From a virus: a stretch of DNA of 41,596 bases. The stretch spans positions 1 to 41,596 of the IMG/VR virus record IMGVR_UViG_3300021959_000105. One strand, 5' to 3'. The notes beneath the pieces are model-generated. The model saw nothing but the letters and a program-made list of their open reading frames with translations. It was not told the DNA's origin and made no database searches. This document shows, in pieces, positions 4,645 through 41,012 of this stretch. Position 1 is the first letter of the stretch. Each line of letters starts with the position of its first letter. The position numbers and the translations under genes are program-made.

Positions 4645-6068
4645 TGTCTAGTGAAAACTTAAAAGCTTTTTTAAATAATGTTGCTGTTCCACATTTTAAG
4701 AAAAGAGCAGGAAGTAAAGGACTACGAAAGCAAACTATATATGAACAAGGACAGATATTTGTAGTTGATCAAGACGAATACTTAACTGAATTTTACAAAA
4801 TAGGCAAATTTCTTGGAATAGAAAAAGGAGAATTAAAGAAAAAAGAAAAAGCAGCAGTAAGCTTACTACAAGCATTTGCTGGTCCAAAAGCACGAGACGA
4901 TTTAACAGAGGAAAGACTACAAGAACTACAAGCTTTACTAAAAGACAAAACATTCCTTAGTAAAATTAAGACTAAAGGTAAAAGGCATTTATTTATTATT
5001 AAGGACTATAGTAGAATTGGGGAATGGAAAAAGAAAAGAAATCCGAACTTTGGCGCGCCTTTAGTCGCAATATATGAAGAATTAGGTGCCGATAAAAAAC
5101 TAGCAGGGATCGCCGTTGGTGGAAATGCAGGAACTCAAACGAAACATGGAGTAGCTACAGGCATTGAGGACATGAAAGGCTTCCAGTTAGGACATGGAGA
5201 TCATGGTACTGCGGTATCGGGTTTAACAGCAAGAGAAGTAAAAGAAAAAACACAAAAAGAGGGGAGTTTAACTTCAAAAGACAAAGATAAGATATATAAT
5301 GTTTTTGCAGAAGTAAATGATGAATTAAAAATTGATATACATCATGAGTTTGTTTTTGAAGATAATGGAAAATTTAGAAAAGACTATGTATTAATACTGT
5401 CTCTACAATCAGCAGCTATTAACCAAAAAGATGCAAAGAGAGAAAGCGACGCTCTTAAAAAGTTAAAAGGAGATTTAGTAGCTTTAGCAGAAGATGAAAA
5501 CTCAACAAGATTGAGAGATGCTATAAGATTATCTTTGATGCACTCAATGGCAAAAGGAAAATATCTATCTACGAGTGCAAAGACAAAAGCTAAGTTTAAT
5601 GAAAGAAGTAACGCAGAGACTAAGAAAAAAATAAAAAGAAAGACAAATACACGCATTGTTTCCTTAGCTTCTATAACAACAAGAGACCAAGTAAAAAAGT
5701 TAAAAGGAAATAAGAGACAACATACAAGAAAAAAAGCAGGAGATGAAAGAAGTTTACTAACTTACATAAATGAAATAAATAAAAGATTACCAGGTAAAGT
5801 AGAAAAAAATATGGGAGCTCCGGGCTTAGAAAATAGAACAGGAAGATTTGCACAAAGCGCAAAAGCGGTAAATGTAACCAAGACAAAACAAGGGCACCCA
5901 AGTATAGGATATACATATGCTAAAAATCCTTACCAAGTATTTGAGCCGGGACAAGGTAAAAAACCTTGGGCGTCTACAGAAAGAGACCCAAGACAAGTAA
6001 TTGATAGGTCTTTACGAGAAATAGCAGTCGAACTAGCTTTAGGTAGATTCTACACAAGGAGATTATAG
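4644..6068 (+). CDS. Large neck/head-closure candidate with HK97 gp10-like C-terminus
   Basis: 474 residues, GTG start whose G is the last base of the previous TAG stop (TAGTG). The last about 105 residues (NMGAPGLENRTGRFAQSAK, YTYAKNPYQVFEPG, RDPRQVIDRSLREIAVELAL) have the RTGRF...S and basic helix pattern of HK97 gp10-type neck proteins, normally only 120-150 residues. The preceding about 370 residues are unrecognised: a Lys-rich part, then a glycine/histidine stretch GFQLGHGDHGTAVSGLTARE (about 175-194), then a long basic segment. Its position between connector and tail terminator fits a head-tail joining role. The large N-terminal extension is unusual and could be an enzymatic or head-lining domain. 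Function beyond neck is not known. Confidence 0.6.
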   Translation: MSSENLKAFLNNVAVPHFKKRAGSKGLRKQTIYEQGQIFVVDQDEYLTEFYKIGKFLGIEKGELKKKEKAAVSLLQAFAGPKARDDLTEERLQELQALLKDKTFLSKIKTKGKRHLFIIKDYSRIGEWKKKRNPNFGAPLVAIYEELGADKKLAGIAVGGNAGTQTKHGVATGIEDMKGFQLGHGDHGTAVSGLTAREVKEKTQKEGSLTSKDKDKIYNVFAEVNDELKIDIHHEFVFEDNGKFRKDYVLILSLQSAAINQKDAKRESDALKKLKGDLVALAEDENSTRLRDAIRLSLMHSMAKGKYLSTSAKTKAKFNERSNAETKKKIKRKTNTRIVSLASITTRDQVKKLKGNKRQHTRKKAGDERSLLTYINEINKRLPGKVEKNMGAPGLENRTGRFAQSAKAVNVTKTKQGHPSIGYTYAKNPYQVFEPGQGKKPWASTERDPRQVIDRSLREIAVELALGRFYTRRL

Positions 6069-25011: not shown

Positions 25012-28000
25012 ATGGCTACAATACAACTAAAGCGGTCAAATACTGCTGGCGCTAATCCTACAACTTCTAACCTTGCGTTAGGAGAACTAGGTATCAATAC
25101 CAAAGACGGAAAATTCTTTTTAAGGAAGCACGTCGATGGTAATACTAGCGGAGATACAATACTAACATATGCTCCACAGGGTATAAACCCTTTTGGAACA
25201 CAAACATATGTAACTAAAGTAGTTTCAAAAACTGCCGCACATCCATATAATGGTACTGGTAGTTCTAGTGGTTATACTATTGATGGTTTAGAAAGTCCTT
25301 ACTTACTTCTTGTACCCGGCAACACATATAAATTTGATCAAGCAGATTCAAGTAATAGTGGACATCCTTTACGATTTTATTTGGAAGCAGATAAAACAAC
25401 TGCTTATACAACAGGTGTCACAACAAACGGTACTCCAGGGTCTTCTGGAGCGTATACTCAGATTGTAGTTGCCGCTACGACTCCCCAAGTTTTATTTTAT
25501 CAATGTTCATCACATGGTTACATGGGTTCAGCATCTTACTCTGTTTCAGACGCAATAGCAGATGGCAAAGTAGGAACAGCTCAAATAGCAACTAACGCTG
25601 TAACTTCGACAAAAATTGCTCAAAACTCAATTTTAACAAAACACATTGATGACAATCAAGTAACAGCAGATCAAATAGCAGATGCGACAGTTACTACAAC
25701 TCAAATAGCCGCAAATACTATTGCAACTGGAAACATTGCAGATAATGCAGTAGACGGCACGAAGATAGCACAGAATAGTATTCTTACTAGACACATAGAT
25801 GATAATCAAGTAACAGCAGACCAAATAGCTGACGCAACAATCACAACAACACAAATAGCAGCAAATACTATTGCAACAGGCAATGTAGCAGATAACGCTA
25901 TTGATGGAACAAAAATAGCATCGAATAGTATTCTTACTCGACATATAGACGATAATCAAATTGGCATCGACCAATTAAATGTAAGTGACGGTTCAAATGG
26001 ACAAGTACTAAAAACAGACGGTAGTGGAACTCTATCTTTTGGTACTGTAACAAGTGGTGGAAGTGCCTCAAATAGTTTTGAAACTATTGCAATCTCAGGA
26101 CAAAGTAATGTAGTTGCAGACTCTTCTACAGATACATTGACACTCGTAGGTGGAACAGGAATCACACTTACAACAAATGCTAGTTCTGATACTATTACAA
26201 TTACAGGAACAACAGGAATATCAGCAAATGCTGTAAACGCAACACATATAGCAACTGGAGTAGTTGGACCAAGTGAACTTGCAGCTACGGCAGTAACAGC
26301 AGGTTCTTATACAAATGCAGACTTAACAGTTGATGCAGACGGTCGTATAACTTCAGCTTCAAACGGTACAGCAAGTGTAGCAGATGGATCAATTTCAACA
26401 GCCAAATTAGCAGACGACGCAGTAACAGCAGCAAAACTTGCAGACACAGCAGTAACAGCAGGAACATACGGTTCTACAACTGTTTCTCCACAGATTACAG
26501 TAGATGCACAAGGAAGAATTACAGGTGTATCAAACCAGACAATCTCTGGTGGGGGCGGGTCTGGTGGTATTGGTTTAAACCAAACTGTCAACGTATATGA
26601 AGGTTCAGGAGATGGATCAACAACTGCTTTTAATACTGGAACAACAATTAACGAAGAAGCCCTTACTTGGGTATTTATAGATGGTGTATATCAGGAAAAA
26701 GGAGCATACTCTACATCTGGTTCAACAGTAACATTCAGTGCAGCACCACCAAACGGAACAAGCATTGAAGTTAATAATTTATCAAACGTAACAACAGGTG
26801 GAGCATTTAATCATAACTCATATAATGGCGATGGATCTACAACAGCATTTACACTTTCAAAAGCACCAGGCTCAGATACAGACTTAATCGTATTTATAGA
26901 CGGTGTATACCAAAACGCTGATGCATTTAATGTAAGCGGTACAACTCTTACATTTGATACTGCACCAGCAAATAGCACAAAAGTTATAGCATACACAATC
27001 GGTGGCGTTGTAATGGGGAAAGCCTCAACAGTTGATAATTTCAATGGAAACGGATCAACTACAGCATTTACACTATCACTAGACCCAGTAAAAGAAGAAA
27101 ATACGCAAGTATATGTCGGTGGTGTATACCAACCGAAAGGAACATATGCTGTAAGTGGAACAACACTTACTTTCTCAGAAGCTCCTCCAAGTGGAACAGC
27201 TAATATTGAAGTAGTTATAAATCAAATTACAACTCTTACTGATGTTGGAGCAAACGCAGTAACATCTACTTCCATTGCAGCAAATGCAGTTGGCTCTGCA
27301 GAGATCGCTGCAAACTCAGTAGATTCAAGTGAATTAGTCACTGGCTCTATTGATACAATACATATTGGAGATGACCAAGTAACAAATGCAAAACTTGCAG
27401 TGAATTCAGTCTCCGCAACAGAACTTGCAGGAAACTCAGTAACAAGTACACAAATAGCAGCTAACCAAGTAGGAGCAAGTGAATTAGACTCAAGTGCTTC
27501 TCCAACTTTTACAAGTGCAAATTTAACAAATACTACTACTGGTGATTCATTACTAATTACTACAACAGAAGATTCAAGCACAGCAGCACCAGTAATTACT
27601 TTAAAAAGAAACTCTAGCTCACCTGCGGATTCAGACTACTTAGGTCAACTTAAATTTAAAGGCGAAAATGATGCCGATCAAGAAGTACTTTACGCAAAGA
27701 TTACAGGTAAGATTGATGATGCGAGTGATGGTACAGAAGATGGTTTAATTGAATTTGCAAATAAGAAAGCAGGTTCAAATGTTATTACTGCAAGACTTAA
27801 ATCAGACAAATTACAATTATTAAACAGTACAGGATTAGAAGTTGCAGGATTAACCTATCCAACATCAGACGGTTCTAGTGGTCAAGTTCTTAGCACAAAC
27901 GGTAGTGGCACTTTAAGTTTTGCTAGTGTTTCGGGCGGACCAACACACAAAGAAGCTGGAACAAACTTTACTAATTCAATAATGATTGGCGATAGCACAA

Positions 28001-29643
28001 CTGGAACCCTAAATTCTGCAGAAGGAAATACAGGACTTGGAATAGATATTTTTGCAGCTTTGACAGAAGGAGATGATAATGTTGCAATCGGATATAAAGC
28101 AGCAAATGCTTTAACTACTGGTACAAGAAATGTATTTATTGGAGAAGAAGCAGGAAGCATAGGTACAACAACAAGTTATTCAGTTGGTATTGGTAGAGAA
28201 TCACTTAAAAATGCAACTGGCGATAATAATACAGGAGTTGGTTATGTAGCCCTAAAAGGATTAACTTCAGGAGAGAGAAATACAGCAGTAGGTAGAAGTG
28301 CTATGGCAGGTGCAGTTACAGGAGATGGTAATAATGCACTTGGCTATGGAGCAGGTGATGCTATTACTTCTGGAAGTAACAATGTAGCAGTTGGAGAATC
28401 TGCACTTGGAGCAATAACTACAGGAGGCAATAATATAGGTATTGGGCATGAAGCACTTCTTGCAGCTACTTCTGAAAGTGGTCAAATTGCTATTGGATAT
28501 AAAGCCTTAACAGACGTTCATACAAATGGAAATAATACAGCTATTGGATATCAAGCAGGTAAAGGAATTACTTCAGGTGCATCTAATATCGCAATAGGTT
28601 ATCAAGCATTTGATAAAGGAACTACTGGTTACGATACAATTGCTATCGGAAATAACTGTCTTGATACCGGTTCTGCATATACTGGTTACTACAATACTTT
28701 TGTAGGAAATAGTACTGCAAGAAATATCACTTCAGCTATATGTAATACAACTTTAGGAAAGTCAGCTTTAGCTACTGAAACAGTTGGTGCAACTAATACA
28801 GCTATAGGCTACAATGCTCTTACGGCTCAAAATACTGGGTATTCAAATACAGCAGTAGGTTCTAGCGCAGGAACGGCTGTTTCAACTGGTGATGAAAACT
28901 GTTTCTTCGGTGATCAAGCAGGCATACAAACTACAAGTGGTTCAAGAAATATTGCAGTAGGTTATCGTGGGGGCAGGGGTAATAGCACTGGCTCTGACAA
29001 CATTATAATTGGTTCAGATGCTTCTTATACAAACTGTACTGGTAACAAAAATATAGCTATTGGAAACAATGCAGGATACCAATGGACTACTGCTTATAAC
29101 AATACCAATATTGGATACGATGCTAGATCAGATGAATATAATTCTTATGGAACTGTAAATTTAGGATATCAATGTAGAGGTAGAGGTAGTACATGGATAA
29201 CAATAGGTAATGGTACTTCTTCTTGGACAGCAGTTGCAATAGGAAGCACAAACTGGTCTTCAAGTTCTGATCAAAGATTAAAAGAAAATATACAAACATC
29301 AACAGCAGGATTATCATTTATAAATGACTTACGGCCAATTACATTTGATTGGAAGAAAAAGAAAGATGTACCAACTAATTTACCAGGGTACGAAAAAGAT
29401 GAAGAAACCAGACTACATGATGTCGAAAACACAAATAAACACGGATTTTTAGCACAAGAAGTTAAAACAGCTTTAGATACTCATTCAGAAGTTTTAGGTG
29501 GTAGTGATATATGGAATGAAGGACCTGATGGAGTACAAGGCGTTTCTATGACTGCACTAATACCAATGCTTGTAAAAGCACTACAAGAAGCAGACAATAA
29601 AATAGATGCCTTAACAGCAAGAATAGAGACACTCGAGGGATAA
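25012..29643 (+). CDS. Giant tail fibre: cupredoxin-like module, YadA-like shaft, S74 chaperone
   Basis: 1543 residues. In order: fibre N-terminus LKRSNTAGANPTTSNLALGE (about 7-26); a cupredoxin-like domain about 65-178 with H118 (GHPLRFY) and C165-x2-H168-x2-M171 (YQCSSHGYM); 'IAxN' repeats about 185-320 with NSILTRHIDDNQV; three beta repeats about 526-738 (NGDGSTTAFTLS and VFIDGVYQ type); a left-handed beta-roll of YadA-head-like repeats about 980-1410 (NTAIGYQAGKGITSGASNIA); and an S74 intramolecular chaperone from about 1419. There SSSDQRLKENI gives the self-cleavage pair S1419-D1420, followed by DLRPITFDWKKKKD and a terminal helix IDALTARIETLEG. It should trimerise, fold and release its last 124 residues. 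Confidence 0.9.
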   Translation: MATIQLKRSNTAGANPTTSNLALGELGINTKDGKFFLRKHVDGNTSGDTILTYAPQGINPFGTQTYVTKVVSKTAAHPYNGTGSSSGYTIDGLESPYLLLVPGNTYKFDQADSSNSGHPLRFYLEADKTTAYTTGVTTNGTPGSSGAYTQIVVAATTPQVLFYQCSSHGYMGSASYSVSDAIADGKVGTAQIATNAVTSTKIAQNSILTKHIDDNQVTADQIADATVTTTQIAANTIATGNIADNAVDGTKIAQNSILTRHIDDNQVTADQIADATITTTQIAANTIATGNVADNAIDGTKIASNSILTRHIDDNQIGIDQLNVSDGSNGQVLKTDGSGTLSFGTVTSGGSASNSFETIAISGQSNVVADSSTDTLTLVGGTGITLTTNASSDTITITGTTGISANAVNATHIATGVVGPSELAATAVTAGSYTNADLTVDADGRITSASNGTASVADGSISTAKLADDAVTAAKLADTAVTAGTYGSTTVSPQITVDAQGRITGVSNQTISGGGGSGGIGLNQTVNVYEGSGDGSTTAFNTGTTINEEALTWVFIDGVYQEKGAYSTSGSTVTFSAAPPNGTSIEVNNLSNVTTGGAFNHNSYNGDGSTTAFTLSKAPGSDTDLIVFIDGVYQNADAFNVSGTTLTFDTAPANSTKVIAYTIGGVVMGKASTVDNFNGNGSTTAFTLSLDPVKEENTQVYVGGVYQPKGTYAVSGTTLTFSEAPPSGTANIEVVINQITTLTDVGANAVTSTSIAANAVGSAEIAANSVDSSELVTGSIDTIHIGDDQVTNAKLAVNSVSATELAGNSVTSTQIAANQVGASELDSSASPTFTSANLTNTTTGDSLLITTTEDSSTAAPVITLKRNSSSPADSDYLGQLKFKGENDADQEVLYAKITGKIDDASDGTEDGLIEFANKKAGSNVITARLKSDKLQLLNSTGLEVAGLTYPTSDGSSGQVLSTNGSGTLSFASVSGGPTHKEAGTNFTNSIMIGDSTTGTLNSAEGNTGLGIDIFAALTEGDDNVAIGYKAANALTTGTRNVFIGEEAGSIGTTTSYSVGIGRESLKNATGDNNTGVGYVALKGLTSGERNTAVGRSAMAGAVTGDGNNALGYGAGDAITSGSNNVAVGESALGAITTGGNNIGIGHEALLAATSESGQIAIGYKALTDVHTNGNNTAIGYQAGKGITSGASNIAIGYQAFDKGTTGYDTIAIGNNCLDTGSAYTGYYNTFVGNSTARNITSAICNTTLGKSALATETVGATNTAIGYNALTAQNTGYSNTAVGSSAGTAVSTGDENCFFGDQAGIQTTSGSRNIAVGYRGGRGNSTGSDNIIIGSDASYTNCTGNKNIAIGNNAGYQWTTAYNNTNIGYDARSDEYNSYGTVNLGYQCRGRGSTWITIGNGTSSWTAVAIGSTNWSSSSDQRLKENIQTSTAGLSFINDLRPITFDWKKKKDVPTNLPGYEKDEETRLHDVENTNKHGFLAQEVKTALDTHSEVLGGSDIWNEGPDGVQGVSMTALIPMLVKALQEADNKIDALTARIETLEG
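25564..25970 (+). repeat. IAxN / HIDDNQ coding repeats
   Basis: Tandem in-frame units encode (AQ/AS)NSILT(K/R)HIDDNQ and DQIADATVTTTQIAANTIAT types. The 15-mer AATAGTATTCTTACT occurs exactly at 25774 and 25924, and again in other fibre genes at 29744 and 32585. They may be a triple-helical or beta shaft and are identical enough for recombination between fibre genes. Confidence 0.75.
27950..29250 (+). repeat. YadA-head-like beta-roll repeats
   Basis: About 30 coding repeats of the N-(T/N)-A-(V/I)-G-x-x-A...TTG/TSG type (for example NNVAVGESALGAITTGGNNI), each roughly 14 residues with variable spacing. In trimeric autotransporters this repeat forms a left-handed parallel beta-roll. In phages it forms fibre shafts or adhesive heads. 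The copy number is an estimate by eye. Confidence 0.75.
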
Positions 29644-33083: not shown

Positions 33084-34520
33084 ATGGCATTTTTAACGGA
33101 AGCAGCAAATCGAGGAAGTATTTCCACTGAGTATGATATTGATAACTCATATAAAAATGAAAACGATAATACTGAAAGAATGTATCGTGCATGGGGTGGA
33201 ATTACTGCAAACACTAGAACATGGACTGTTAGCCTTTGGATTAAAAGAACTGAATTAGGTGCTTGTTATACTTGGGGAGCAGGTACAAGCGGTAATGATG
33301 TATTAGTTGTTGATTTTGATAGTAGTGATAGATTAGGGTTTAGGTCAACAAAAGACGCAGCAAATGATTGTGTTTATCGTACCAATAGAGTGTTTAGAGA
33401 TACATCAGCTTGGTATCATTTGGTTTTTGCAGTAGATACAACATCAGGTACAGCAGGGAACAGACTGCGTATTTATGTTAACGGCGTAGAAGAAACTTCA
33501 TTCGCTACGGAAACTAACTTTGACCAAAACGATTTAACATTACACAACGCAAATGGCTCATATATGGAAGTGGGTGCTGTTATTGGTGAATCACCAAGAT
33601 TTCATGGCTACATAGCAGAAGTTAATTCTATAACTGGAACTCAATATGCGCCTACTGCTTTCGGTAGGTTTGATGAGAATGGAATTTGGGTTCCTATACT
33701 ATTTGCAGGAAGTTATGCAGAAAATTCTGTATTTTTAGAGTTTAAAGATTCTTCAAGTTTAGGCACAGATACTAGCGGTAATAGTCAAACCTTTACTTTG
33801 CAAAATTTATCAGCAGCCGACCAAGCAACTGACACACCTACTAATAATTTTTGTACTCTGAATAATAATTCCAGAACTAATGCTAATATTAGAACTCAAG
33901 AAGGTGGTAGTAAAGTTACAACTGACGGGGGTTCGGGTTGGTGCTCAATGAATGCTACTATGGGTGCTAAGTCTGGTAAGTGGTACTGGGAAGCTGAGCA
34001 TATGTCTTCTGATAGTGATAATGTATTTTGGGGTGTAGCTGCAGTCGACGACCCTTATATTCCTCATAGAGCAGGTGGATATTACTTAGGTAATGTTGCT
34101 GCTTGGACTTCAATGGGATTGTATAGTTATAATGGACAAGTTTATAATGGAACTTGGCAAAATGGAACTGGTCATTTAGCTAATAGTTCTAATGATGTAA
34201 TTATGTTTGCTTTAGATGCTGACAATGGTTACTTTTATTTTGGTAAAAATGGTACTTGGGGAAATAGCTCTGATCCAACAACAACGGGGGGAACAGCGGC
34301 TGCAACTTTAAGTACTACACAAACTAACCCTTGGACGGATTTTATTGTACCTTCTGTTTCCGTTTTCCAAGGAATGAAAACAACATTTAATTTTGGGGGT
34401 TATACAGCACATACACCTAGCAGTGCAGCATCAGATGCTAATGGCTACGGAACTTTTGAACATGCACCCCCTACAGGCTACTACGCCTTATGCAGTAAAA
34501 ACTTAGCGGAGTACGGATAA
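33084..34520 (+). CDS. LamG plus SPRY-like lectin fibre protein, cassette 1 gene b
   Basis: 478 residues. Residues about 40-190 form a concanavalin/LamG-type fold (TVSLWIKRTELG, RVFRDTSAWYHLVFAVDTTS, LRIYVNGVEET). Residues about 275-460 look like a SPRY domain (GKWYWEAEHMSSDSDNVFWG, AADNGYFYFGKNGTW). The ending GYYALCSKNLAEYG recurs in its paralogue at 38516. Such two-lectin proteins are likely to bind cell-surface sugars. The stop overlaps the next start (TAATG). Confidence 0.85.
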   Translation: MAFLTEAANRGSISTEYDIDNSYKNENDNTERMYRAWGGITANTRTWTVSLWIKRTELGACYTWGAGTSGNDVLVVDFDSSDRLGFRSTKDAANDCVYRTNRVFRDTSAWYHLVFAVDTTSGTAGNRLRIYVNGVEETSFATETNFDQNDLTLHNANGSYMEVGAVIGESPRFHGYIAEVNSITGTQYAPTAFGRFDENGIWVPILFAGSYAENSVFLEFKDSSSLGTDTSGNSQTFTLQNLSAADQATDTPTNNFCTLNNNSRTNANIRTQEGGSKVTTDGGSGWCSMNATMGAKSGKWYWEAEHMSSDSDNVFWGVAAVDDPYIPHRAGGYYLGNVAAWTSMGLYSYNGQVYNGTWQNGTGHLANSSNDVIMFALDADNGYFYFGKNGTWGNSSDPTTTGGTAAATLSTTQTNPWTDFIVPSVSVFQGMKTTFNFGGYTAHTPSSAASDANGYGTFEHAPPTGYYALCSKNLAEYG

Positions 34521-35623
34521 TGGCTTATACAACTATAGATGACCCAAGTGCATACTTTCAGACTGCTGTTTATTCAGGTAATGGCTCTACTGTAGTAACT
34601 GTAACAAACGATGGAAACTCAAGCTTACAACCAGATTTACTTTGGTTTAAAAAACGAGATAGTGCTGTTACCCATGTACTTATAGATACAAATAGAGGAG
34701 CAAATGTTACTTCAGGGTTTGGACCAACAGGATATAATATAGTTTTGAACACTGACTCAAATGTTGCAGAAATAGCTGACAGTTCGGGTGTAATGACAAT
34801 TACCTCTGATGGTTTTACCTGTAAAGAACTAACCTCTGCTGCAGGTAATGTTAGCACAGGCTCTATGTGTTGCTGGCAATGGCATTGTGATGCTGGTGAC
34901 AGAATTACATTTAGTGAAAGTGGAAATAATCCCGGCGGTGTTAGACAAACAAATGCTACAGCAGGACTTAGTATTATAGTTTATACAGGTACAGGAGCTA
35001 ATGCTAGTTGTGAAATAGCACATGGATTAGGAAAAGCACCTGAATTTATTATCTTCAAAAGAGGAAATAGTACAAATGGATGGGTTGTTTATCATAAAAG
35101 TGTAGGAATTGATAAAAAATTAGTTTTAAATGACACGGCTGCAGAAGATGCAGATGGTGCTTTTATGAACGGCACAATACCAAACGCTACTAATATTTTT
35201 GTAGGTGGTACTTCAACAAACACAAACGCAGATGGGGGTGGCTATAACTGCTATGCGTGGACTTCAGTACAAGGCTACAGCAAGTTTGGCAGTTATATCG
35301 GTAATGGAAGTACAGATGGTCCGTTTGTCTATACAGGCTTCAAACCTGCTTTTTTAATGATGAAAGAATCATCAAGTGCAGGTGGTAACTGGGTTATTTT
35401 TGATAATAAAAGAGATGTTGATAATGTTCTTATACATAGACTACACCCAAATACAACGGCAGGAGATAACACTTCAAGAAATTATATAGATTTTTATTCA
35501 AATGGTTTTAAAATGAGAAACACAGATGCAGACCATAATCAAACAGGTGAAACTATGGTATACATGGCTATTGCAGAAAATCCATTCGTAACATCAACAG
35601 GAGCGCCGGCAACGGCAAGATAA
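34520..35623 (+). CDS. Distal fibre protein, cassette 1 gene c (DUF7483-like)
   Basis: 367 residues. Beta-rich, with PDLLWFKKRDSAVTHVLIDT, GLSIIVYTGTGANASCEIAH GLGKAPEFIIFKRG (split here by a gap for readability), YSKFGSYIGNGSTDG, FVYTGFKPAFLMMKE and the end YMAIAENPFVTSTGAPATAR. It resembles a phage family I believe is filed as DUF7483, usually adjacent to LamG proteins; that label is from memory. Paralogue of the protein at 39915. Probably a receptor-contacting partner of the upstream lectin protein. Confidence 0.8.
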   Translation: MAYTTIDDPSAYFQTAVYSGNGSTVVTVTNDGNSSLQPDLLWFKKRDSAVTHVLIDTNRGANVTSGFGPTGYNIVLNTDSNVAEIADSSGVMTITSDGFTCKELTSAAGNVSTGSMCCWQWHCDAGDRITFSESGNNPGGVRQTNATAGLSIIVYTGTGANASCEIAHGLGKAPEFIIFKRGNSTNGWVVYHKSVGIDKKLVLNDTAAEDADGAFMNGTIPNATNIFVGGTSTNTNADGGGYNCYAWTSVQGYSKFGSYIGNGSTDGPFVYTGFKPAFLMMKESSSAGGNWVIFDNKRDVDNVLIHRLHPNTTAGDNTSRNYIDFYSNGFKMRNTDADHNQTGETMVYMAIAENPFVTSTGAPATAR

Positions 35624-37868: not shown

Positions 37869-38516
37869 ATGGCAGATAGATTTCCTCTAGTAGTAGACTC
37901 ATCTAATAATAACATCAAGGAATTACCTGATGGAGATTCCCTACTACTCGGAGACAGCGAAAAATTAAGACTCGGTGATGGACAAGATTTAAACTTGTAT
38001 CATGATGGGTCAAATTCATACTTAGCAAATAGTACAGGAGCATTAAAATTAGCAACAGAGACAAGTGGTATCGCAATAACAATCGGACACACTACTTCAG
38101 AGACTACAGTTGCAGATAATTTGACAACAACAGGTAATGCAACCACAACAGGCACAAGTACATTTACAGGAGTTGCAACAGCGTCAACTTCCTCAAATAT
38201 AACACAAACAGCACTTACTTCGAGTAGTAACGCAGTGGCATGGGATGCAGCAGCAAAAGCAAATGCATATCATGTTACTACTGAGAATACAACTTTTTCA
38301 GCTCCAAGTAACGCAGTAGAAGGTGCAATTATTAGTGTAGAGCTTGCCCAGGGTGGCACGGCTAGAACAGTTGCATGGAATACAGTATTTGAGTTCGCAG
38401 CTTCAACAGCACCAACAGTCACAGCAACAGCAAACAAAACAGATATATTTGCTTTTCGATATAATGGCTCAGTCTGGCAAGAAATTGGCAGAATACAGAA
38501 TATGGCACAAACATAA
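37869..38516 (+). CDS. Short fibre protein, cassette 2 gene a
   Basis: 215 residues. N-terminus is different from cassette 1 gene a: MADRFPLVVDSSNNNIKELP and LRLGDGQDLNLYHDGSNSYL, a motif widely used in phage fibres. The C-terminal 98 residues match cassette 1 gene a at all but about eight positions. The two coding regions differ at many synonymous positions. The stop overlaps the next ATG (TAATG). Confidence 0.8.
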   Translation: MADRFPLVVDSSNNNIKELPDGDSLLLGDSEKLRLGDGQDLNLYHDGSNSYLANSTGALKLATETSGIAITIGHTTSETTVADNLTTTGNATTTGTSTFTGVATASTSSNITQTALTSSSNAVAWDAAAKANAYHVTTENTTFSAPSNAVEGAIISVELAQGGTARTVAWNTVFEFAASTAPTVTATANKTDIFAFRYNGSVWQEIGRIQNMAQT

Positions 38517-39913
38517 TGGAAACATTACAACGGCTACATAATCGAGGAAGTATATCTACTGGTCCTTATCAGGTTGATAACTCTACTGCTTTTGATAGAA
38601 CAAGAACTGAGTATTATACACGAGATGTTTCTAGTTCAGGTAGTAGAACTACAGGCACAATTAGTATGTGGGTTAAAAGAGGTAGAGGAGATTTAGCTCA
38701 ATACCTTTTTACTTTTGGCAACACTGATAATGATGATGGCAGAACTTTTGCTAGGTTTCAGGTTGATAATACGTTATGGATTGGCGGAGGTTCTACTTTT
38801 TGGAGAAAAACAAGTAAAGTTTTTCGAGATTTTGCAGCATGGTATCACATTGTAGTTGCTTTTGATACAACCCAAAGTACAGCCAATGACAGAATTAAAT
38901 TATATGTTAATGGTGTGCAAGAAACTAGTTTTTCAGCAACAGCTAATCCAAGCCAAAACGGCAATTTAGGTCTTAATTTTCAAAAACAAGTTATAGGATA
39001 TAATTCAATAGATAATGGACAGCCTTATGATGGCAATATTTGCGAAGTTGTTATACAAGATGGAGTTGCTTCTGCACCTACAGAGTTTGGTGAGTTTGAT
39101 GAAGATACTGGTATTTGGATTCCTATTGATCCGAGTGGAGTAACTTTTGGAACTAATGGTGCTTACTTAAACTTTGCAGATTCCGGAACTATGGGGAATG
39201 ATGCAAGTGGTGGTACAGACTTCACAGCTAATAATTTAAACTCTACAGACTTGAGTGAAGACACCTGCACAAATAATTTTGCAACATGGGACTACAATAC
39301 AGGGTACTTACAAGGCGATGCTACAGCTTTTACAGCGGGTAATTTAATACGACAAGGAGGAGGTAGTGCTTATACCGCTTGTGTAGGAACTATTGGTATA
39401 AATCCTTTTTCGAATACTAATAAATGGTATTTCGAAATTGAGTCATCTGCAACTATTAATGGCTCTAGTAATGAAATTTTATTTGGATTAATTAGTACAA
39501 CAACGATGTTAGATGGATCTCATGCTAATACTAATGTCTTCAGTGGGGACAGTGGCAATTTTGTAAGATATGCATCAGCAAGTTTTGCGGGAGAAGGGGC
39601 ACTTCAGGCAGGAGGAATAGTAGGAATTTTATTAGAATGTGGTACTACTCCTGTTTTTAAAATATATAAAAATGATTCACTTGTGTGGACTAAAACACAC
39701 GGCTCAGGAGGAGTTACTTTTGAAGATGAGTTTTATTTGCCTTATGTAGCTGGAGCTAGTACAAGTTTAGAAGTAATAGCAAACTTTGGAAATCCTGTAC
39801 AAGAATTCGCTGTAGCATCAGGAAATTCTGATCCAAATGGATATGGCAATTTTGAATTTACAACAAAAGGTGGTTACGCATTATGTACAAAGAATTTAGA
39901 GGAGTTCGGATAA
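38516..39913 (+). CDS. LamG plus SPRY-like lectin fibre protein, cassette 2 gene b
   Basis: 465 residues, paralogue of the protein at 33084. Matching landmarks: NRGSIST near the start, ISMWVKRGRGD, KVFRDFAAWYHIVVAFDTTQ, IKLYVNGVQETSF, FGEFDEDTGIWIPID, KWYFEIESSATINGSSNEIL (SPRY start) and the end GYALCTKNLEEFG. Overall moderately similar, with the sugar-facing regions differing most. Likely to bind a different glycan. Confidence 0.85.
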   Translation: METLQRLHNRGSISTGPYQVDNSTAFDRTRTEYYTRDVSSSGSRTTGTISMWVKRGRGDLAQYLFTFGNTDNDDGRTFARFQVDNTLWIGGGSTFWRKTSKVFRDFAAWYHIVVAFDTTQSTANDRIKLYVNGVQETSFSATANPSQNGNLGLNFQKQVIGYNSIDNGQPYDGNICEVVIQDGVASAPTEFGEFDEDTGIWIPIDPSGVTFGTNGAYLNFADSGTMGNDASGGTDFTANNLNSTDLSEDTCTNNFATWDYNTGYLQGDATAFTAGNLIRQGGGSAYTACVGTIGINPFSNTNKWYFEIESSATINGSSNEILFGLISTTTMLDGSHANTNVFSGDSGNFVRYASASFAGEGALQAGGIVGILLECGTTPVFKIYKNDSLVWTKTHGSGGVTFEDEFYLPYVAGASTSLEVIANFGNPVQEFAVASGNSDPNGYGNFEFTTKGGYALCTKNLEEFG

Positions 39914-39914
39914 T

Positions 39915-41012
39915 ATGGCATACTCAGATATAAAAGACCCAAGTGCACATTTTCAGACTAAATTATGGACTGGTAATGCAAGTTCAAATGAAATTACCTT
40001 TGATGGTAATAGTGATTTACAAGCAGATTGGATTTGGCATAAAGAACAAAATGACACTAATGGTTGGCATCAAACTGATACTAGTATAGGAATTGCTAAT
40101 TATCTTGCTTCTGAAAGTAGTGCTGCGGAGTATGGGGTTGGTAGTGCTTATGTATCTGCAATAGGCAGCAATTCAATTACCTATGGTAGTGGTGATAGCT
40201 CTTTTAATTCTAATTCAGTAGCACAGGCTACATGGGCGTGGAAAGCCAATGGTGGAACAACGGCTAGTAATACGACAGGAAATGGTATTGACTCTACTGT
40301 TCAAGCAAATACAACAGCAGGTTTTAGTATTGTTACTTACACAGGTAATGGTACACAAAGCGGACAAACAGTAGGACATGGCTTGGGTGCTGTTCCTAAA
40401 ATGATTATTTCTAAAGATAGAAATGCATCGTCTAATGTTCCTAATTGGCGTGTTTATACTGTGGGCATGGGTAACACTAAATATTTAACTTTAGATACCG
40501 ATGCTGCTGCTGGAACTTATAACGATTGGGATAATACAACTCCAACATCTTCAGTATATTCAGTAGGTGGTGCAGGTGGTTATACTCCAACAAACAACAA
40601 TAACACTCCTTATGTAGCTTATGTATTTGCAGATGTTCAAGGCTTCTCAAAATTTGGTTCTTATGTCGGTAATGGTTCTGGAACTTCTGATGGAACTTTT
40701 GATGGAGCTTTTGTCTATTTAGGTTTTAAACCTGCTTGGGTGTTGATTAAAAGGGCAAGTTATTCAGCAGGAGATGGATGGGTACTTTTTGATAACGAAA
40801 GAGGACCTATTAATTACAACCAAAATCAACTAAACCCTGCTAGCACCGCAGCAGAATCAGGTGCGGTCTATGATGCAGTAGATTTTTTAAGTAATGGGTT
40901 TAAAGCTAGAACAGGTAGAGCAGGTGTAAATGCTTCAGGCAGTACATACATCTACATGGCATTTGCAGAAAATCCATTTGTCGCAGGTGGAGTTCCCACA
41001 ACCGCAAGATAA
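39915..41012 (+). CDS. Distal fibre protein, cassette 2 gene c (DUF7483-like)
   Basis: 365 residues, paralogue of the protein at 34520. Shared landmarks: DPSAHFQTKLWTGN, GFSIVTYTGNGTQSGQTVGH, GLGAVPKMII, FSKFGSYVGNGSG, FVYLGFKPAWVLIK, YIYMAFAENPFVAG and the end PTTAR. It is the last gene of the plus-strand late region and its stop is only 5 bases before the convergent terminator. Confidence 0.8.
   Translation: MAYSDIKDPSAHFQTKLWTGNASSNEITFDGNSDLQADWIWHKEQNDTNGWHQTDTSIGIANYLASESSAAEYGVGSAYVSAIGSNSITYGSGDSSFNSNSVAQATWAWKANGGTTASNTTGNGIDSTVQANTTAGFSIVTYTGNGTQSGQTVGHGLGAVPKMIISKDRNASSNVPNWRVYTVGMGNTKYLTLDTDAAAGTYNDWDNTTPTSSVYSVGGAGGYTPTNNNNTPYVAYVFADVQGFSKFGSYVGNGSGTSDGTFDGAFVYLGFKPAWVLIKRASYSAGDGWVLFDNERGPINYNQNQLNPASTAAESGAVYDAVDFLSNGFKARTGRAGVNASGSTYIYMAFAENPFVAGGVPTTAR

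Follow-up and report, generated by a model that had tools for sequence, protein, structure and literature searches.

A cupredoxin-like domain with a predicted type-1 copper site in a viral tail fibre, one copy of a mobile module of marine phage tail and baseplate proteins

Residues 64-178 of a tail fibre encoded on a viral contig are best explained as a cupredoxin domain that carries the complete ligand set of a type-1 copper site and serves as a metal-stabilised structural or adhesive module; we give this explanation as a whole a probability of roughly 60%. The domain is one copy of a mobile module that occurs across the tail and baseplate proteins of marine phages. Both the fold and the site are known, and what we rate as new is their unexpected and abundant viral setting; our search of the open-access literature found no paper on a cupredoxin domain in phage tails.

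The window, that is, the whole stretch of DNA that was analysed, is a 41.6-kb virus contig from IMG/VR (41,596 nucleotides). Its fibre gene (Table 1) lies within a siphovirus-like structural region, downstream of genes for the portal, the major head protein, the tail tape measure and tail assembly proteins, and upstream of several more fibre-like genes. The N-terminus of the fibre (residues 1-63) is also found in two homologous proteins (L002 and L003), the closest among the relatives listed. A search of the entire window at an E limit of 10 detected the cupredoxin-like module in a single copy. Elsewhere on the contig, positions 33084-35623 and 38516-41012 hold two diverged copies of one two-gene fibre module, a duplicated fibre gene set of which both copies match PHROG families 27411, 19943 and 24898.

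Table 1. Features of the fibre gene and of its cupredoxin-like domain (window coordinates)
Feature	Position	Strand	Evidence
Tail fibre gene, 1543 aa, carrier of the domain	25012..29643	+	ORF; PHROG tail fibre / tail spike families
N-terminal fibre region, aa 1-63, preceding the cupredoxin-like domain	25012..25200	+	
Cupredoxin-like domain, aa 64-178	25201..25545	+	AlphaFold2 pLDDT 94.4; fold searches; homologues
His118, first predicted copper ligand	25363..25365	+	72/72 invariant; aligned with first ligand His of plastocyanin and NirK
Cys165, predicted copper ligand	25504..25506	+	Conservation; profile alignment to PDB cupredoxins
His168, predicted copper ligand	25513..25515	+	Conservation; profile alignment to PDB cupredoxins
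Met171, predicted axial copper ligand	25522..25524	+	Conservation; profile alignment to PDB cupredoxins
DUF4183 match, best of three stretches, aa 534-585	26611..26766	+	Pfam, E 3e-7
Peptidase_S74 intramolecular chaperone domain, aa 1419-1490	29266..29481	+	Pfam, E 9.6e-12; typical of trimeric fibres

The sequence-only reading of this DNA had described residues 65-178 (positions 25204-25545) as a compact beta domain, and AlphaFold2, run on an alignment of 27 sequences, returned a confident all-beta model with nine strands (pTM 0.86). The structural search that the same reading had called for gave near-uniform cupredoxin matches. Foldseek placed rusticyanins first among PDB entries (E ~1e-3, probability 1.00, TM 0.5), and the rest of its top 50 includes the purple cupredoxin of Nitrosopumilus, a nitrite reductase with an amicyanin loop, amicyanin, plastocyanin, laccases and domains of clotting factors. 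When the model was structurally re-aligned, the N-terminal domain of Hyphomicrobium NirK scored a Z of 8.9 across 100 residues, with NirK, small laccase or rusticyanin in 50 of the 50 rows listed. An independent model of a cyanophage gp9 domain (pLDDT 89.1) drew mixed Foldseek matches, amicyanin and pseudoazurin being prominent beside Ig-like domains, and was re-aligned onto the same NirK domain (Z 8.8, 2.3 Å over 86 residues); all 50 rows listed for it were cupredoxin folds. As Z values near 8 are modest by the re-alignment tool's own note, the weight of the fold evidence is in the uniformity of these lists and their agreement with the sequence profile rather than in Z itself. Collectively, the models support a Greek-key beta sandwich of the cupredoxin superfamily, about 100 residues in size, as the predicted fold of residues 64-178.

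Profile searches against the PDB point in the same direction. The two best matches of a profile built from the window's own subfamily were a multicopper oxidase and a pseudoazurin, at E values of only 0.16 and 0.3. A profile of divergent relatives reached NirK (1.2e-5), plastocyanins (6e-4) and the NirK variant with an amicyanin loop, 2vmj (8e-4), and 52 of the 60 PDB sequences listed were cupredoxins. These alignments pair the His, Cys, His and Met of the phage domains with known copper ligands, and the loop aligns without gaps to that of 2vmj (CTPHPFM); the score is, however, partly driven by the ligand motif itself. Since two unrelated repeat-protein chains rank top when a gp9-only profile is used, we rely on the divergent profile and on the folds. 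Searches of Pfam, and single-sequence searches of the PDB, with the window domain returned nothing significant. The plastocyanin/azurin family PF00127 has no match in the window and matches 3 of 18 divergent members weakly (best E 0.0058); the amicyanin model TIGR02657 likewise matches 3 of the 18, at a best E of only 0.011, which is not significant. The curated Pfam and NCBIfam cut-offs are unmet by the phage domain, and because no curated family is convincingly matched, our assignment stays at the superfamily level: we place the module in the cupredoxin superfamily but outside every named cupredoxin family. Weak sub-threshold matches to the At5g54830-like domain PF25489, in 6 of 27 and 5 of 18 members, give a hint of eukaryotic relatives.

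The type-1 ligand set had been placed by the sequence-only reading at His118 in SGHPLRFY and at Cys165, His168 and Met171 in YQCSSHGYM, and the open reading frame holds all four residues at these positions. The predicted set includes an amicyanin-type C-x2-H-x2-M loop, and the cupredoxin-like character that had been deduced from it is now backed by the model, the fold and profile searches and the conservation of the ligands. Chance is a poor source of such a pattern: when the whole fibre protein (6 Cys, 16 His, 7 Met) was shuffled 20,000 times, C-x2-H-x2-M arose in three shuffles, and in two (~1e-4) it was accompanied by a His 30-60 residues upstream. A scan of IMG/VR confirmed at least 581 relatives among 600 candidates, and the best 80 loci yielded 72 unique domain sequences, in which each of the four ligands is invariant (72/72); free variation among homologues, the outcome named beforehand as speaking against a metal site, did not occur. 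Further residues invariant in the same 72 domains include His77, Tyr106, Phe108, Asn115, Phe122, Tyr123 and Tyr163, among others. His77 (25240-25242), a fifth His, is invariant in this window-type subfamily (72/72) but not family-wide, and may play a structural role or act as an additional ligand.

The ligands persist at far greater distances. Relatives from bacterial and single-cell assemblies, with identities down to ~42%, keep all four, and in a divergent set of 18 phage domains (gp9, long tail fibre, podovirus, pelagiphage and other proteins; mean column identity 37%), exactly five columns are invariant, namely the four ligands and the Tyr two residues before the Cys. In a family-wide alignment of 459 domain copies, 287 unique rows span the four ligand positions, and all but one of them (286) show H-C-H-M; as the scan patterns behind this set excluded the Cys loop, its conservation was not imposed by the search. 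By unaligned text matching, the C-x2-H-x2-M loop is present in 46 of 47 ligand-bearing representatives at 70% clustering, the remaining one being a matching artefact. The loop residues between the ligands vary freely. His118 and Cys165 behave in an all-or-none manner: 287 unique domains carry both, 26 carry neither, and none carries only the one or only the other (0 and 0); the corresponding counts of both, either single residue and neither are 48/0/0/13 after clustering at 70% and 15/0/0/3 at 50%. Nearly all of the ligand-less copies represent one paralogue, the second copy in a cyanophage baseplate protein, and some have a His one position off, so that few evolutionary events are involved and the statistic for coordinated loss is weaker than its p-value. 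This paralogue (L208-L287; for instance L235, residues 573-681) adjoins a copy with the Cys loop in the same protein and provides a natural metal-free control.

The sequence-only reading had mentioned similar modules in marine phage fibres, and relatives are indeed found in fibre and baseplate proteins of marine phages and cyanophages. A tblastn search with the copy of P-GSP1, a member of the gp9-type branch, found matches in 351 of 50,697 phage records, nearly all of them named cyanophages or marine phages, while no relative of the module was found in plasmids. Relatives of the gp9 type are most commonly carried by gp9, the connector between baseplate wedge and tail fibre, and others occur in gp7, in tail fibres and in giant flavobacterial surface proteins; the window's own subfamily is found in phages of Synechococcus, Prochlorococcus, Pelagibacter and Methylophilales. 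In the giant Flavobacteriaceae proteins (L105, L107 and L108, around 5001-5291; L107 is open for 3429 aa), the module is accompanied by a C-type lectin domain and by DUF11/DUF7507 repeats. Their copy and the one in cyanophage S-TIM5 have an identity of ~53%, which points to exchange between marine bacteria and phages. Across carriers, the domain begins from ~44 to more than 1800 residues after the first Met. A fixed role at the joint between fibre and baseplate was not adopted, as the position of the domain is too variable for it.

We think it probable that the predicted site binds copper. The sequence-only reading had put forward stabilisation of the fibre trimer, redox sensing and targeting of metal-related receptors as conceivable roles for such a site. 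The fibre folds in the host cytoplasm, and because free copper is vanishingly low there, the metal would probably be loaded after lysis. Once bound, it would mainly rigidify the sandwich and the ligand loop, which would yield a compact, stable structural or adhesive module within the fibre. As the main role of the metal, this is the most likely one in our view, although we propose it tentatively. The near-absolute conservation of exactly four ligands, combined with free variation of the loop residues, argues for selection on the metal site rather than on a binding surface for a single partner, and such selection favours a structural or adhesive module over a dedicated electron carrier, a role that we consider less likely. 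Dedicated electron carriers usually keep a docking patch. The residue directly after the first ligand His is usually Pro in the phage domains and Asn or Ser in classical cupredoxins; Pro would deprive the Cys sulphur of one backbone hydrogen bond, and the potential might drop. That substitution also weighs against our explanation, as do the Foldseek values of only ~1e-3 at a TM of ~0.5, the curated Pfam and NCBIfam cut-offs that the domain does not reach, the unrelated chains on top of the gp9-only profile together with the motif-driven part of the PDB profile score, and the persistence of ligand-less copies, according to which the fold can serve without metal.

That the classical ligand set is kept in full, with its axial Met, would also suit a redox-active site at which copper takes or gives electrons at the host surface or reports the redox state, for example by triggering a change in the fibre or baseplate on envelope contact. 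Type-1 sites of the cupredoxin fold are usually electron carriers. We nevertheless regard this as unlikely, as the residues around the exposed His vary and thus leave no fixed docking patch, and as unrelated proteins carry the module at many different places. Still less probable is copper-mediated adsorption, in which the metal or the copper-loaded domain would dock to metal-uptake or outer-membrane receptors of the host, in analogy to the iron Trojan Horse idea. The domain sits in host-contacting fibres, the module is common to giant flavobacterial proteins with a lectin domain, and iron in fibres has been proposed to mediate such docking (PMC11705849). Most copies, however, reside in the baseplate protein gp9 and not at fibre tips, and the window domain lies near the N-terminus of a fibre whose S74 chaperone marks the C-terminal end. 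We assign a similarly low likelihood to a purely structural site for another thiophilic metal, zinc or iron, that never holds copper in nature. A His2-Cys-Met set can hold metals other than copper, zinc is often incorporated when cupredoxins are produced in E. coli, and the fibre is made in a cytoplasm where free copper is scarce; against this, copper proteins keep the axial Met and the amicyanin-type spacing of the loop, as the phage domains do, and zinc sites rarely conserve Met. Finally, a metal-free Ig-like spacer, in which the Cys/His/Met pattern survives only for structural or historical reasons, would fit the ligand-less copies that persist in cyanophage baseplate proteins and the frequency of Ig-like domains in phage fibres, but is very improbable given that no positions are better conserved than the ligands when very divergent sequences are compared, that His118 and Cys165 are never lost singly, and that fold and profile searches favour cupredoxins.

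Comparison with known systems places the predicted metal-stabilised module close to, and yet apart from, established cupredoxins. With amicyanin (TIGR02657; PDB 1aac, 3ply) and with NirK carrying a grafted amicyanin loop (2vmj), it has in common the fold, the His...Cys-x2-His-x2-Met spacing and the Tyr two residues before the Cys, but the identity is ~20% or less and the usual Pro after the first His sets it apart; moreover, amicyanin is a soluble periplasmic electron carrier, whereas the phage domain is embedded in a fibre and scores below the curated cut-offs. The cupredoxin domains of NirK (2dv6, 6tfd) and rusticyanin (1rcy, 2cal) are the best structural matches of the two independent phage-domain models; the former is an enzyme domain, the latter an acid-stable electron carrier, and their ligand-loop lengths differ from that of the phage domain. 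Cyanophages encode a soluble plastocyanin, PetE (gene petE), that has a type-1 copper ligand set and belongs to the same superfamily (PMC3037559), but it is a separate photosynthetic protein active in the infected host, while the present domain is part of a virion protein. Iron-binding HxH sites have been shown or proposed in the fibres of T4 (gp37) and of the Alteromonas phage R22Y (PMC11705849). In contrast, no two His residues stand two positions apart anywhere in the window fibre, and its predicted site lies inside one folded domain.

These data suggest that the tails of many ocean viruses contain copper or a metal like it. Should the site be loaded, viruses of great abundance in the sea would have copper centres in their host-contacting machinery, and the concept of tail-borne metal in phages would widen from iron to copper; the domain would also offer a spectroscopic handle (a ~600 nm band, EPR), and phage particles would be a possible organic copper ligand. 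A more far-reaching proposal, which we consider doubtful, is that marine virions are copper metalloproteins, with most T4-like cyanophages and many other ocean phages bearing multiple functional type-1 centres in baseplate and fibres for adsorption or host-surface sensing, and contributing to the copper ligand pool of seawater. In any case, a module recorded only as tail fibre, virion structural or hypothetical protein gains a testable identity. In a viral structure library, the same domain is seen in many marine phage proteins, including those of P-SSM2, P-TIM68 and S-TIM5; more distantly, three pithovirus- or marseillevirus-like 'beta-sandwich' proteins in BFVD (A0A481Z6J5, A0A481YY19, A0A481Z7Q7) match its fold closely, at TM 0.74-0.78 with 20-28% identity.
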